Assembly (NCBI RefSeq): GCF_900098745.1
Contig: NZ_FQTT01000009.1
Location: forward strand, 186,001-250,000
Reading direction: 5' to 3'
Source: Actinomyces glycerinitolerans
Lineage (GTDB): Bacteria > Actinomycetota > Actinomycetes > Actinomycetales > Actinomycetaceae
Length of the DNA stretch: 64,000 bases
This document shows, piece after piece, positions 4,640 to 49,611 of the stretch (positions are counted from its first letter, which is position 1; each line of letters opens with the position of its first letter). The notes under the pieces are model-generated. The model was not told the DNA's origin. It made no database searches and saw only the letters and a program-made list of their open reading frames with translations. The position numbers were made by a program, and so were the translations under genes.

Positions 4640-5623
4640 ATGAGCACCGAAAACCTCGAACTGACCCAGGAGTGGGACAAGGTCTTCCCCCAGTCCGACG
4701 CCGTGGACCATGAGAAGGTCACCTTCCACACGCGCTTCGGCATCACCCTGGCCGCCGACCTGTACAAGCCGAAGGACGCCGACGGCAAGCTGCCCGCGCT
4801 GGCCGTGAGCGGGCCCTTCGGCGCCGTCAAGGAGCAGTCCAGTGGCCTGTACGCCCAGACCATGGCCGAGCGCGGCTTCCTCACGATCGCCTTCGACCCC
4901 AGCTTCACCGGCGAGTCCGGCGGCACGCCCCGCTACATGAACTCCCCGGACATCAACATCGAGGACTTCCAGGCCGCCGTCGACTTCCTGTCCGTGCGCG
5001 ACGACGTCGACCCCGAACGCGTCGGCATCATCGGCGTCTGCGGCTGGGGCGGCATGGCGCTGGCCGCCGCGGCCGCCGACCCGCGGATCAAGGCCACCGT
5101 GGTCTCCACCATGTACGACATGAGCCGGGTGGCCGCGAACGGCTACTTCGACTCCGCCGACTCCGCCGAGGCCCGCAATCAGACGCGCGCATCCGTGGCC
5201 GCCCAGCGCACCGCCGACTACCGCTCCGGCACCTACGCCCTGGCCGGCGGGGTAGTAGACCCGCTGCCCGAGGATGCTCCCGGCTTCGTCAAGGACTACT
5301 ACGCCTACTACAAGACGCCCCGCGGCTACCACCCCCGCTCCCTGAACTCCAACGACGGGTGGACGGTCATCGGTGGCTCCTCGCTGATGAACGCGACCCT
5401 GCTCGGCTACATCGAGGAGATCGAGAACGCCGTCATGATCGTCCACGGGGAGGCGGCCCACTCCTACTACATGGGTAAGGACGCCTTCGCCCGCCTGCAG
5501 GGCGACAACAAGGAATTCGTCTCCATCCCCGGCGCCTCCCACACCGACCTGTACGACGGCGGCGAGAACGGCGCCATCCCGTGGGAGAGGATCACCGAGT
5601 TCCTGCGCACCAACCTCGGCTGA
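4640..5623 (+). CDS. alpha/beta hydrolase with Cys nucleophile (dienelactone-hydrolase-like superfamily)
   Basis: 327-residue alpha/beta hydrolase. The nucleophile elbow reads GVCGWGG, so the nucleophile is Cys, as in dienelactone hydrolases and the YcjY-like group, instead of the usual Ser. A late His in the GASHTDLYD region completes the probable triad. The start at 4640 follows ATGGAG by nine bases; upstream in-frame ATGs at 4568 and 4625 are less likely. No signal peptide is visible, so it is cytoplasmic. It is divergent from a LysR gene that probably regulates it. The substrate is unknown. Confidence 0.85.
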   Translation: MSTENLELTQEWDKVFPQSDAVDHEKVTFHTRFGITLAADLYKPKDADGKLPALAVSGPFGAVKEQSSGLYAQTMAERGFLTIAFDPSFTGESGGTPRYMNSPDINIEDFQAAVDFLSVRDDVDPERVGIIGVCGWGGMALAAAAADPRIKATVVSTMYDMSRVAANGYFDSADSAEARNQTRASVAAQRTADYRSGTYALAGGVVDPLPEDAPGFVKDYYAYYKTPRGYHPRSLNSNDGWTVIGGSSLMNATLLGYIEEIENAVMIVHGEAAHSYYMGKDAFARLQGDNKEFVSIPGASHTDLYDGGENGAIPWERITEFLRTNLG

Positions 5624-5683: not shown

Positions 5684-5871
5684 GCTGGCTTGGCCTCGGC
5701 CTCCGACGGCTTTGAGGAGCTTGTCCCGGGTGACGTGCCGAGAGGAAAAGTGGTTCTTCCGGTTTGGGGGTGTGGTGGTTGTCTCGGGCTGCGGCAGGAG
5801 TGCTGCCGATGTCCTGGGACATGGCATGGGGTGGGGTGGGTGGCGTGGGGTGTCTGGTGCGCCGGCTGGGC

Positions 5872-5944
5872 GTTAACAACGCTACTTAACGCTCTGCTGT
5901 ATACCTCTGGGGCCTTCAGCAGACGGTTAACTGGCGTTGTTAAC
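5872..5944. repeat. 28-bp inverted repeat
   Basis: Arms at 5872-5899 and 5917-5944 match at 24 of 28 positions (GTTAACAACGC...TCTGCTG) around a 17-base centre. A diverged relative, with the TCTGCTG and GGCGTAGCAG motifs, lies near 6690-6755. The structure could form a cruciform or a long RNA hairpin. No transposase is nearby. Confidence 0.7.
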
Positions 5945-6164
5945 CCCGAAGTGGCGTAGCAGACGGCGACGCGGCGCAGTAGACGGCCCCGCTCCCGGGC
6001 GCCGGAGCTATCGGCAGCCAAGTGCAGCCAGGCCTGGAATGACGAGCCGGCGCCGTGGAGGTTTAACCCGCGTCCTCGAGCACTCCGCCCGGCCGCGGCG
6101 AGAGCGTCCCTACCGGGCCGAGGACGTCCTCGCCAGCCCGAACACGACCCCGCCGGCCACATGT

Positions 6165-6273
6165 CCTCGTCAGCCTCAGAACGTCCGCGCAGACCCCACG
6201 CCGACCTCGTGCGCCCGACCACGACCACCCGCGGGCCCGAACCACCACACCCACAATCCGCAGAGCCCGTGAA
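6165..6273. repeat. intergenic direct repeat, copy 1
   Basis: It begins CCTCGTCAGCCTCAGAACGT and ends CACCCACAATCCGCAGAGCC. The same beginning and end occur at 6850-7015, and a shorter relative of the end lies at 49308-49332. No coding function is apparent. Confidence 0.6.
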
Positions 6274-6289
6274 CATTCGATAGTGCTCT

Positions 6290-6419
6290 CAGCTGTCACA
6301 GATTGCACCACTTTGCTGGGACATGCCGGAATCTTGGTCGACAGAACCGCATGATTTCAACGATGTGCGCTAGGTGGCTCGTGTCCGGGCAGGTAAAGTG
6401 GTGCAATCAGTGACAGCTG
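6290..6419. repeat. 25-bp inverted repeat enclosing a copy of the 70-bp intergenic element
   Basis: Arms 6290-6314 and 6395-6419 match at 24 of 25 positions (CAGCTGTCAC[A/T]GATTGCACC...). The left arm is the end of a roughly 70-bp element running on the minus strand from 6362 to 6293, which starts CGTTGAAATCATGCGGTTC. Related copies lie at 30457-30525 and 48899-48967. Confidence 0.7.
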
Positions 6420-6849
6420 GGCGGCGGTCACCGTGGTGAACCGGCAGGCCCACCGGTTTCCTCGCCCGGAGACACGCCGGCCGCCACATCCACAAGCACG
6501 ACGAGCCGGTCCGGATGCCCTGGCGGGGTTGCTAGAGGACACGCCCCGGCCCTCGAGGACGCCTCCCGGGAGAGCGTCCTCGGCGGCCCGACGACGTCCC
6601 CGCCGACCCGAGCACGACCGCATCACCCCGACCACCACCCCCGCACCGCAGCCCCGGCCGGACCTCACACCCGCAAACCGGAAGCGCCTGTTTACTACGC
6701 CGGTTGGGTGTCTGCTGAAGGGGTCTGGGGAGGTCAAATTGGCGTAGCAGAGGCCGAAGGGGCGTACCCAACGACCGCGCCCTGGCCTCGATCCCACTCG
6801 CTCTACGCCCGTGGCACCGCCCCGAGGACATCCCCGCCGCCGGTGACGT

Positions 6850-7015
6850 CGTCGTCAGCCTCAGAACGTCCGCGCAGGACCCACGACCTCGTTTCCCGCA
6901 CGCCCGAGCACGACCTCATCGTCCCGAACACGACCACCAAGTCGGACCCGTCCGCGCCGAACACGACCACCCGCGAGCCCGAACCACCACACCCACAAAC
7001 GCGAAGAGCCGTGAA
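6850..7015. repeat. intergenic direct repeat, copy 2
   Basis: It shares GTCAGCCTCAGAACGTCCGC at its start and CCGAACCACCACACCCACAA at its end with 6165-6273, with a longer middle. The ACGCGAAGAGCC at 6999-7010 recurs at 49317-49328. Confidence 0.6.
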
Positions 7016-30385: not shown

Positions 30386-30456
30386 CAGCCGGGCGGCAGC
30401 GCATTGTCACAGATGGAGACAAACGCGCCCCGGGCCTCGAATCGCGTTTTGCGAAT

Positions 30457-30525
30457 CGTTGGAATCACGCGGTTTCCGAACCGGCTCGAGCGGATGGTTC
30501 CGGTGTTTGTCACCGATTTTGACAG
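30457..30525 (+). repeat. 70-bp intergenic element, copy at 30.5 kb
   Basis: It starts CGTTGGAATCACGCGGTTTC and ends near ATTTTGACAGTC, 69 bp long, in the gap between two convergent SDR genes. Relatives with the same ends and nearly the same length lie on the minus strand at 6293-6362 and 48899-48967. Confidence 0.6.
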
Positions 30526-36008: not shown

Positions 36009-36217
36009 CAGAGCTCCCCTCGACGACGATGTCCTGCGGGCGTCACCCATGGGTGTTCAGGTACACGCTTATCGTAACGCGTGTCACAAAATGCTGGGCG
36101 CCGGTGGGCGTATGTCTTGTATGGCGACCGGCGACGTATCGCAGAATGGTCGTTTAGGGGGTACGGGCGTGAACGCCGCGGTGCCCGGCCCCGGTTCACG
36201 GCGAGGCCTGCGAGTCC

Positions 36218-48777: not shown

Positions 48778-49611
48778 GCCGGGAGCGCTGTCAACGGGCT
48801 TGTTTGGTTTGTTGGAGTGGGGGTGGGGTGTTGTGGGCTTGGTTGGGTTGGGTGCTGGCGGGGGTGGGGTGTGCCCGGGTGCCGCGCCGTGGGGCGGAAT
48901 GTCCAGATTCGGCACTAAGGCCGTCGACGACCGCTGGGGCCGTTTCTGAAACCGCATGATTCCAACGTTCTGCCCACGGCCGTCGGCAGCGTCGGAGTCG
49001 TTTATGCCGATCCTGGACACTTTGGGCAGCCACGCGCGGGAACGAGCGCCGACGGCGGGCCGTGGGCGGACAGGCCGCGGTGAGGCCGGGCGGTCCCGGC
49101 GGCCGCGCCTGTCTCGGCCCCCTACTTGGACCGAGTCCCTCCAGTTGGACCGCGAATCTGCGGTTGGACCGCCTGAGAGCGCGTCTGGGGCCGTCCAAGC
49201 GCAGCCAGACAGTCCGAGTACAGCCGGACGGTCCAAGCAGGCGCGGGTTAGCCGGTCGAACCGCAAACAGCCACACACCCGAGACACCACCCCAACCCCC
49301 GTCTCTACACCCTTAAACGCGAAGAGCCCGTAAGTCCGGTGCGCACACGGGTTCCTTGCGGGGCGGTCGGCTCATTGGCGGTTCGCCCGGTATGTCGGCA
49401 CCCACGCGGGTTCCTTACCGACAGTCGTGGGCGTGGCGGAGGTGAGTGTACGGCGTCACTGGCCCGCGCCGTCGTCGTCGGCCCGCGGCTCCCGTAGGCT
49501 GGGTGATGGTGTGCGCCGACGACGCGATCCGCACCCCGGCGCGGCCGGGGAGCGTCGTCGTCGGGGCACGAGCGAATCCGAGAAACCCCTTTTGAAAGGC
49601 GTATCAGACCT
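48778..49611. other. gene-free, repeat-containing intergenic region
   Basis: About 830 bp with no supported gene. It holds a dense G-run tract (48819-48869: seven or eight runs of three or more G within about 50 bases), a copy of the 70-bp element (48899-48967, minus), and the motif ACGCGAAGAGCC at 49317-49328 shared with 6999-7010. Imperfect repeats of CACGCGGGTTCCTTnC occur at 49340-49420. The last part carries the ettA promoter. Confidence 0.65.
48899..48967 (-). repeat. 70-bp intergenic element, copy at 48.9 kb
   Basis: On the minus strand it starts CGTTGGAATCATGCGGTTTC and ends GTGCCGAATCTGGACAT, 69 bp. Copies lie at 6293-6362 (minus) and 30457-30525 (plus). After the first motif, this copy and the 30.5-kb copy also share GAAaCGGCccCaGCGG-like sequence. 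Confidence 0.65.

Follow-up and report, generated by a model that had tools for sequence, protein, structure and literature searches.

The repeated element is a non-coding miniature unit of strictly fixed geometry. The full unit is of about 120 bp and comprises a 21-bp end, a spacer of ~29 bp, an 18-bp centre, a second spacer of ~31 bp and a 21-bp inverted end; in the common layout the end reads TGTC-N10-ACAAACG and the centre, AACCGCATGATTYCAACG, is asymmetric and little changed between copies. Bases 11-15 of the ends vary between elements and between species and agree within one element. Since the copies are repeated in bursts, some of them sharply bounded, and carry matched ends, we lean, if only slightly, towards reading the unit as a miniature non-coding mobile element with REPIN-like habits that would be moved by a putative mobiliser encoded elsewhere.

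Layout of the element and census of its copies

The initial annotation described a 70-bp intergenic element in three copies in the window (the whole stretch of 64,000 nucleotides that was analysed). The 19-bp end on which it was based, CGTTGAAATCATGCGGTTC, does occur at all three places when up to 3 mismatches are allowed (shuffling the window gives an expectation of 0.01), and the distance of about 70 bp from it to a TGTC-type end holds. Printed with their flanks, however, nearly all matches to the centre turned out to lie midway in a symmetric element of greater size, so that the 70 bp comprise the centre and one half only of a true element of 120-122 bp. The initial annotation was right that a unit of constant length recurs between genes, its ends conserved and its filling variable; the unit that it delimited and the size that it gave were wrong.

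Copy 1 is an element of 122 bp on the plus strand (6294-6415), with the end class TGCACCACTTT and inverted arms that reach 6290-6419; it consists of the left end TGTCACAGATTGCACCACTTT (6294-6314, plus strand), the asymmetric centre AACCGCATGATTTCAACG (6345-6362, plus strand) and the inverted right end TGTCACTGATTGCACCACTTT (6395-6415, minus strand), which equals the left end in 20 of 21 bases. The 25-bp inverted repeat reported at 6290-6314 and 6395-6419 is real, but the second inverted end is not a peculiarity of this copy, as had been proposed, and is also present at 30405-30425 and 48999-49019. Copy 2 (30405-30524, minus strand, 120 bp; centre AACCGCGTGATTCCAACG at 30457-30474, minus strand) occupies the space separating two convergent SDR genes, whose predicted stops are 19 and 16 bp away. 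Copy 3 (48900-49019, plus strand, 120 bp; centre AACCGCATGATTCCAACG at 48950-48967, plus strand) carries the code CGGCA at both ends, and the repeated sequence continues outside the element. Copies 2 and 3 belong to the commoner end class, which starts with TGTC and finishes with ACAAACG or nearly so. The sequence GTGCAATCTGTGACAG, proposed as the end common to all three, fits loosely, but copy 1 has the class TGTC-N6-(A/T)TGCACCACTTT and is thus a member of a second, less common end class.

The genome-wide search for further copies, suggested by the initial annotation, gave 48 matches to the 18-bp centre (up to 3 mismatches) in the 3.7-Mb genome and 0 for the reversed control. For the anatomy, 44 of 49 centre-match sites in this genome were retained; 33 of the 44 copies were exactly 120 bp long with the centre at positions 51-68. 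A covariance model, likewise suggested there, was built from 41 copies (A1) and used to score the best 150 of 4903 first-look candidates. It detected 53 elements, all scoring 55.9 bits or more, with 24.7 bits for the best match outside them; copy 1 scored 82.5 bits (G000:C9:192290-192419). Because an element matched on both strands is counted more than once by the model, these 53 distinct places were counted by hand. The common-end pattern gave 55 matches against 0 in the control, and all 55 lie inside the 53 elements.

The census is a lower bound since ten more places (L114-L120 and L076-L078), chosen from the matches of an earlier search, were missed by the model. These are inverted pairs spanning 130-133 bp with the end class of copy 1, TGTC-N6-(A/T)TGCACCACTTT or near. 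The best centre match was at the expected place (56-57), with 11-13 of 18 bases, in six of the ten, and elsewhere or no better than chance in the other four; some of their centres read ...GATTNCGCGG. Near-copies of copy 1 lie at C4:107147-107276 and C9:555562-555692. In several copies (edges at L058, L010, L066, L067 and L168) a variant outer end, AATGATGCTCC or near, replaces AATGTCC. At C19 ~451661-451774 (L075), a centre match is accompanied by a perfect 15-bp inverted repeat, GTTGCACACTGGAGC, at -45 and +47, and is perhaps an element with quite different ends.

Comparison of 96 model matches from several species indicated that 75 were likewise 120 bp long and 15 longer by one base; including 8 flank bases, 90 measured 128 or 129 and the rest 119, 127, 130 (two) and 131 (two). 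Spacer identity between copies was about 41%. The centre read in reverse, AATCATGCGGTT, may resemble the IHF consensus.

Matches to the model at E <= 1e-6 were found in 37 of 49 genomes of the genus, this one included, and none at this threshold in the other 12; such zeros are not proof of absence because the model misses places of the copy-1 type. One genome with zero in the genus search, G010, had one match at 4.1e-6 in the family search, in which elements were detected (E <= 1e-5) in 38 of 200 sampled genomes and in 3 of 36 genera. The candidates scored were the best 70 per genome in the genus search, 150 in two deeper searches and 17 in the family search. Genome G032 carries elements at at least 92 distinct places, as counted by hand among the matches listed. 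An exact pattern occurred in 32 stretches of named genomes, all of A. ruminicola, A. ruminis and A. succiniciruminis. Copy 1 had no match in phage and plasmid records, and neither of the two exact centre matches in viral contigs had inverted ends.

The matched code at the two ends

Bases 12-15 were the same at both ends in 77 of the 96 elements, with 23 different 4-mers at these positions, while 2000 shuffles averaged 15.6 and never exceeded 28; in a wider set the figure was 179 of 221. The set of 96 was derived from 148 matches after removal of 49 opposite-strand matches, two elements doubled through overlapping loci and one partial match. The model pairs both ends, so that its matches lean to matched ends. 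The initial 33 copies had been retrieved through their centre, and in these, positions 13 and 14 agreed at 0.97 against 0.63 and 0.49 expected.

Among the 96 elements, the agreement between the ends was 0.85-0.95 at positions 11-15 and 0.54 and 0.53 at positions 6 and 7, near the expectation of 0.43 and 0.47. Passive matching by quasi-palindrome correction, in which replication template switching copies one arm onto the other, would change blocks of neighbouring bases together at both ends, as is indeed seen here. We nevertheless consider it very improbable, since the matching is sharp, falling off within four bases, and since positions 11-15 are the least changed part of the ends in place: in the 25 pairs with genome G041 that are described below, 5 of 250 bases differed at positions 11-15, 13/200 at positions 1-4, 22/300 at positions 5-10 and 11/300 at positions 16-21.

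The initial annotation had also offered a structured RNA or a protein-binding array. Transversions accounted for 73 of 149 end mismatches in the first set and for 173 of 339 in the 96 elements (81/133 at positions 11-21). As about half of the mismatches are transversions, an RNA stem fits less well than a pair of protein sites that share one specificity on double-stranded DNA, and the protein-binding option gains support, in the form of matched ends, from this share and from the sharp matching at bases 11-15. The one weak sign for RNA is that transitions of the G-U type (minus strand) exceeded other transitions, 47 to 29 in the first set and, in the 96 elements, 61 to 35 at positions 5-10; at positions 11-21 there was no such excess (25 versus 27). 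Complementarity of the spacers (columns 22-50) was about as expected in the 33 centre-found copies, with scattered small excesses such as column 42, and a self-facing GACA at positions 14-17, able to fold the end on itself, was present in 170 of 442 ends.

The elements are mostly intergenic. Using a crude gene finder, 39 of the 53 had clear neighbours (17 convergent, 17 tandem and 5 divergent contexts), nine overlapped a predicted ORF and five had no neighbour within reach; where inspected, the adjoining genes were ordinary and varied. A structured RNA or bidirectional terminator between convergent genes would agree with this share of convergent contexts, 17/39 compared with 10/44 for adjacent genes across the window (hand count), and with copy 2, which almost fills its convergent gap. 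Considering the transversions, the lack of consistent complementarity in the spacers and the lack of any Rfam match in the window (0 at gathering scores), we hold this explanation to be the least credible, with hardly any likelihood left to it.

Elements with like interiors can differ by an entire code at both ends. Pairs with at least 70% identical spacers comprised 19 with a concerted code change, 255 unchanged and 127 one-sided or unmatched; the 19 share members and are not independent. The clearest change affects both ends, TGCCA in G032 versus TGTTG in G005, in elements whose interiors are up to 86% alike: of the 24 distinct elements read in G032, 23 have TGCCA and the remaining one has TGTTG, which is also the code of all five distinct elements from G005. 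In the place occupied by copy 2 of the window, genome G028 has GGTCACAAACG at both ends and the present genome GGTGACAAACA and GGAGACAAACG.

Amplification, persistence in place and neighbouring genes

Two copies 1.1 kb apart on contig C11 of this genome are identical over 120 bp, and the identity ends 7 and 3 bp outside; a copy pair in G023 differs by 4 mismatches and its likeness ends 2 and 2 bp outside. In G032, the 27 places read carry 24 distinct elements, one sequence being present at two places and another at three. For 22 of the 24, the mean pairwise identity in 20-bp bins was 1.00 at the ends and 0.79-0.80 in the interiors, falling towards 0.3 in the flanks, in a set restricted to elements with TGTC...GACA whose ends match in no fewer than 15 of 21 bases, a choice that favours intact ends. 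The range of copy numbers, the two identical 120-bp copies and this recent burst support the MITE-like option of the initial annotation.

The identical G032 elements also share about 66 bp leftward, with a single place excepted, and 50 bp or more rightward. The left edge near -66, AAGGTTATTCTGGG, bounds the amplified unit in most G032 copies read, while the right edge is ragged; the unit amplified in G032 thus exceeds 120 bp. Extra flank also accompanies the CGGCA group in this genome, and for both reasons the TGTC ends may not be transposition ends.

Several orthologous slots hold an element of another lineage, code or orientation (L318 versus window copy 3, L294/L159, L288/L160, L245/L106, L299/L101 and L312/L161), and where the window has copy 2, G023 carries a copy whose nearest lineage is placed elsewhere in the present genome (spacers 0.78 alike to L091). 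A clean pair of filled and empty sites for a single element was not found, the empty sites differing by larger blocks, and reading of the flanks by eye revealed no consistent target duplication. At 36127-36210 the window has 84 bp where G028 has 756 bp with an element (L260), the flanks otherwise matching.

The site of copy 1 is of the same kind. Its gap, between genes ending at 5623 and 7081, is composed of several repeat modules, and the orthologous sites differ greatly in size: 90 bp in G027 and G028 against 1262 bp here, 223 bp in G034 against 1387 bp and 367 bp in G024 against 1451 bp. These differences indicate that copy 1 arrived with or into a composite block, from which its own insertion cannot be isolated. 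Modules of the GAGGACGTCC / CGACCACGACCACC kind (6150-6226, 6571-6642, 6837-6938, 6203-6273 and 6945-7015) build the block around it. A different palindromic repeat of 113 bp, 73% identical to its own reverse complement, lies at 5852-5964, and many of the listed matches in relatives from the search with the copy-1 gap fall on it.

Twenty-five same-lineage pairs with genome G041 were compared in place. Differences amounted to 4/450 in the centre, 74/1506 in the spacers and 38/1044 in the ends; the centre differed from the spacers at p = 2.5e-5, while the ends as a whole did not differ significantly from them (p = 0.14). Sixteen pairs with G023 or G028 gave 19/288, 164/967 and 56/667, respectively. 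Constraint in place thus acts on the centre, and the spacers drift. The flanks, on 31 well-aligned sides of at most 12% divergence each, differed at 106 of 3700 positions (2.9%), so neither the spacers nor the whole element (129/3006) evolve more slowly than their surroundings; an overall flank divergence of 12.8% is inflated by stretches that do not align. No indels occurred in the 25 elements, against 4.9 expected at the flank rate; this zero is partly built in, as the pairs were hand-picked as same-lineage from a scan accepting only 119-122 bp, and the model, which tolerates indels, also shows little change of length. Around L336:1505 (G032) and L337:1505 (G005), the 120-bp element is identical and the surrounding ~3 kb are 89% identical.

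An invertible switch was considered, but all 25 pairs, chosen as same-lineage, keep place and orientation. Among the flipped slots only L298/L166 may be of the same lineage (spacers 52 and 58% alike), and no orientation bias was seen by eye along the G023 chromosome.

Such persistence fits a host function too. A chromosome-structuring or regulatory element kept by selection, with a dimeric protein bound at both ends and a different protein at the centre, would account for same-lineage copies in the same place across species, for the constrained centre (4/450 versus 74/1506), for slots that retain an element of another lineage, for the distribution of contexts (17 convergent, 17 tandem and 5 divergent of 39) and for the scarcity of decayed copies, given the step from 55.9 to 24.7 bits, though the model misses ten elements of the copy-1 type. 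We regard a host site as unlikely because 12 of the 49 genomes had no match at E <= 1e-6, because of the burst in G032 and the ordinary and varied neighbours, and because several codes per genome would hardly be tolerable for one regulator. The mobile reading remains the one that we prefer.

As a lead from the sequences, elements may border gene gains and losses. On contig C14 (~133.8-145.7 kb, L264), two elements enclose 11.6 kb with a CRISPR-Cas locus, which comprises Cas2, a Cas4-Cas1 fusion, Cas3 and two GSU005x Cas proteins, together with an array containing 18 occurrences of a 24-mer at intervals of about 72 bp; the corresponding two elements of G041 are 240 bp apart, and the locus is absent there. 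The GSU005x proteins are presumably Csb1/Csb2 and the locus of type I-G/I-U. On contig C7, a 3.7-kb DHDPS/DcuAB/LacI block stands between two elements; G041 has a single element there, which is like one C7 element in its left half and like the other in its right half, the switch being near the centre. Near 71.9 kb of C7, the edge of an element forms one limit of a gene-containing block of ~867 bp, and in G023 an extra ~1.1 kb is bounded by two near-identical copies.

These four cases would suit elements that serve as crossover points for gene cassettes, through a site-specific recombinase or homologous recombination. Other homology breaks, however, lie 6-60 bp outside the element, and no recombinase gene was linked to the elements; in the 3.7-kb case plain homologous recombination suffices, the left halves being ~93% alike. 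We therefore judge this explanation rather improbable, and return to a mobile element in what follows.

Proposed mechanism and relation to known systems

A single protein may bind both ends as double-stranded DNA and read bases 11-15, as we infer from the matched code. The conserved asymmetric centre and the fixed length together suggest a bend at the centre that lets the ends meet: the centre would be a second site, perhaps a bending site, by which the two 50-bp arms are folded onto each other, which would explain both the fixed length and the indifference to the spacer sequence. A transposase or recombinase encoded elsewhere would act on the paired ends, and the elements would spread. Should the specificity of this reader shift, only copies with both ends of the new code would spread, and species would consequently differ in their dominant code.

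Counted against the mobile reading are that no single-element empty site, no target duplication and no Y1 or rve transposase was found in the genomes searched, that the unit amplified in G032 is larger, that the pairs with G041 keep their place and that the ends are not significantly slower than the spacers. The rve transposase domain PF00665 had no match in this genome (controls 6/14) and the Y1 transposase PF01797 none in the 49 genomes of the genus (controls 5/14); an insertion sequence with the ends of the element was not found in this genome either, 0 of the 55 end-pattern matches lying outside elements. The elements are MITE-like in being short, non-coding and present in many copies with inverted repeats, but an rve-type MITE is not supported in this genome, which has no PF00665 match.

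The elements may further represent a new class of small mobile DNA, characterised by an identical, fast-changing code at the ends, a fixed-length folding scaffold with a conserved centre, a reader that is non-rve (this genome) and non-Y1 (the genus), lineages that switch the code at both ends, and a dominant code specific to the species; we put this forward as a doubtful possibility. Small intergenic mobile elements are common, and for many the mobilising enzyme is not known. Here the variable end bases offer a ready readout of the bases read by the putative protein, the strict length and conserved centre predict a defined protein-DNA complex, and the like interiors under different codes in G032 and G005 make the co-evolution of element and reader directly testable. 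That some elements appear to border gene gains and losses, including that of a CRISPR-Cas locus, adds to their interest.

No published description of the element was found in a limited literature search. By habit, the nearest known kind is the REPIN, an inverted doublet of REP sequences (Bertels and Rainey 2011, PMC3116915). As portrayed in the parts of that paper cited here, the likeness includes inverted conserved ends that form one unit, a length-sensitive spacer, intergenic location, many copies, several end types per genome and changes on both sides. The present elements differ in having no consistent pairing of the spacer halves and in their conserved asymmetric 18-bp centre (PMC3116915). 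The hairpin ends and the transposase that define REPINs (PMC3116915) are not found, since a self-facing GACA is present in 170 of 442 ends only and no transposase of the Y1 family, to which RAYTs belong, was found in the 49 genomes; membership was rejected on these two grounds.

The Correia/NEMIS elements of Neisseria (~107 and ~155 bp) are similar in size and have inverted ends, and the IHF site inside their 155-bp form may be likened to the internal site here (PMC2229807). Going by the description in the portions of that source consulted, they differ from the present elements, which have many matched codes (23 4-mers), belong to an unrelated phylum and showed no filled/empty site (PMC2229807). 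ERIC/RU-1 (127 bp) and RUP (107 bp) resemble the present elements in size, intergenic place and inverted repeats, but RUP corresponds to an insertion sequence of the IS630 type and has TA targets, and no such partner insertion sequence was found for the present elements; in the same portions, neither is described as combining a conserved centre with matched variable ends (PMC2229807).

Dimers of GTAG- and CGTC-tagged REPs were described by Di Nocera 2013 (PMC3733652), in whose main text the word stem 'actino' is absent. Each of these REPs is a tagged hairpin, unlike most ends here, which fail the GACA test, and the CGTC group is presented, in the sections cited, as being without a known transposase (PMC3733652). 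In common with the present elements, these dimers are inverted, often of equal elements, have similar spacer lengths and are likewise located mostly between convergent and co-directional genes (PMC3733652).
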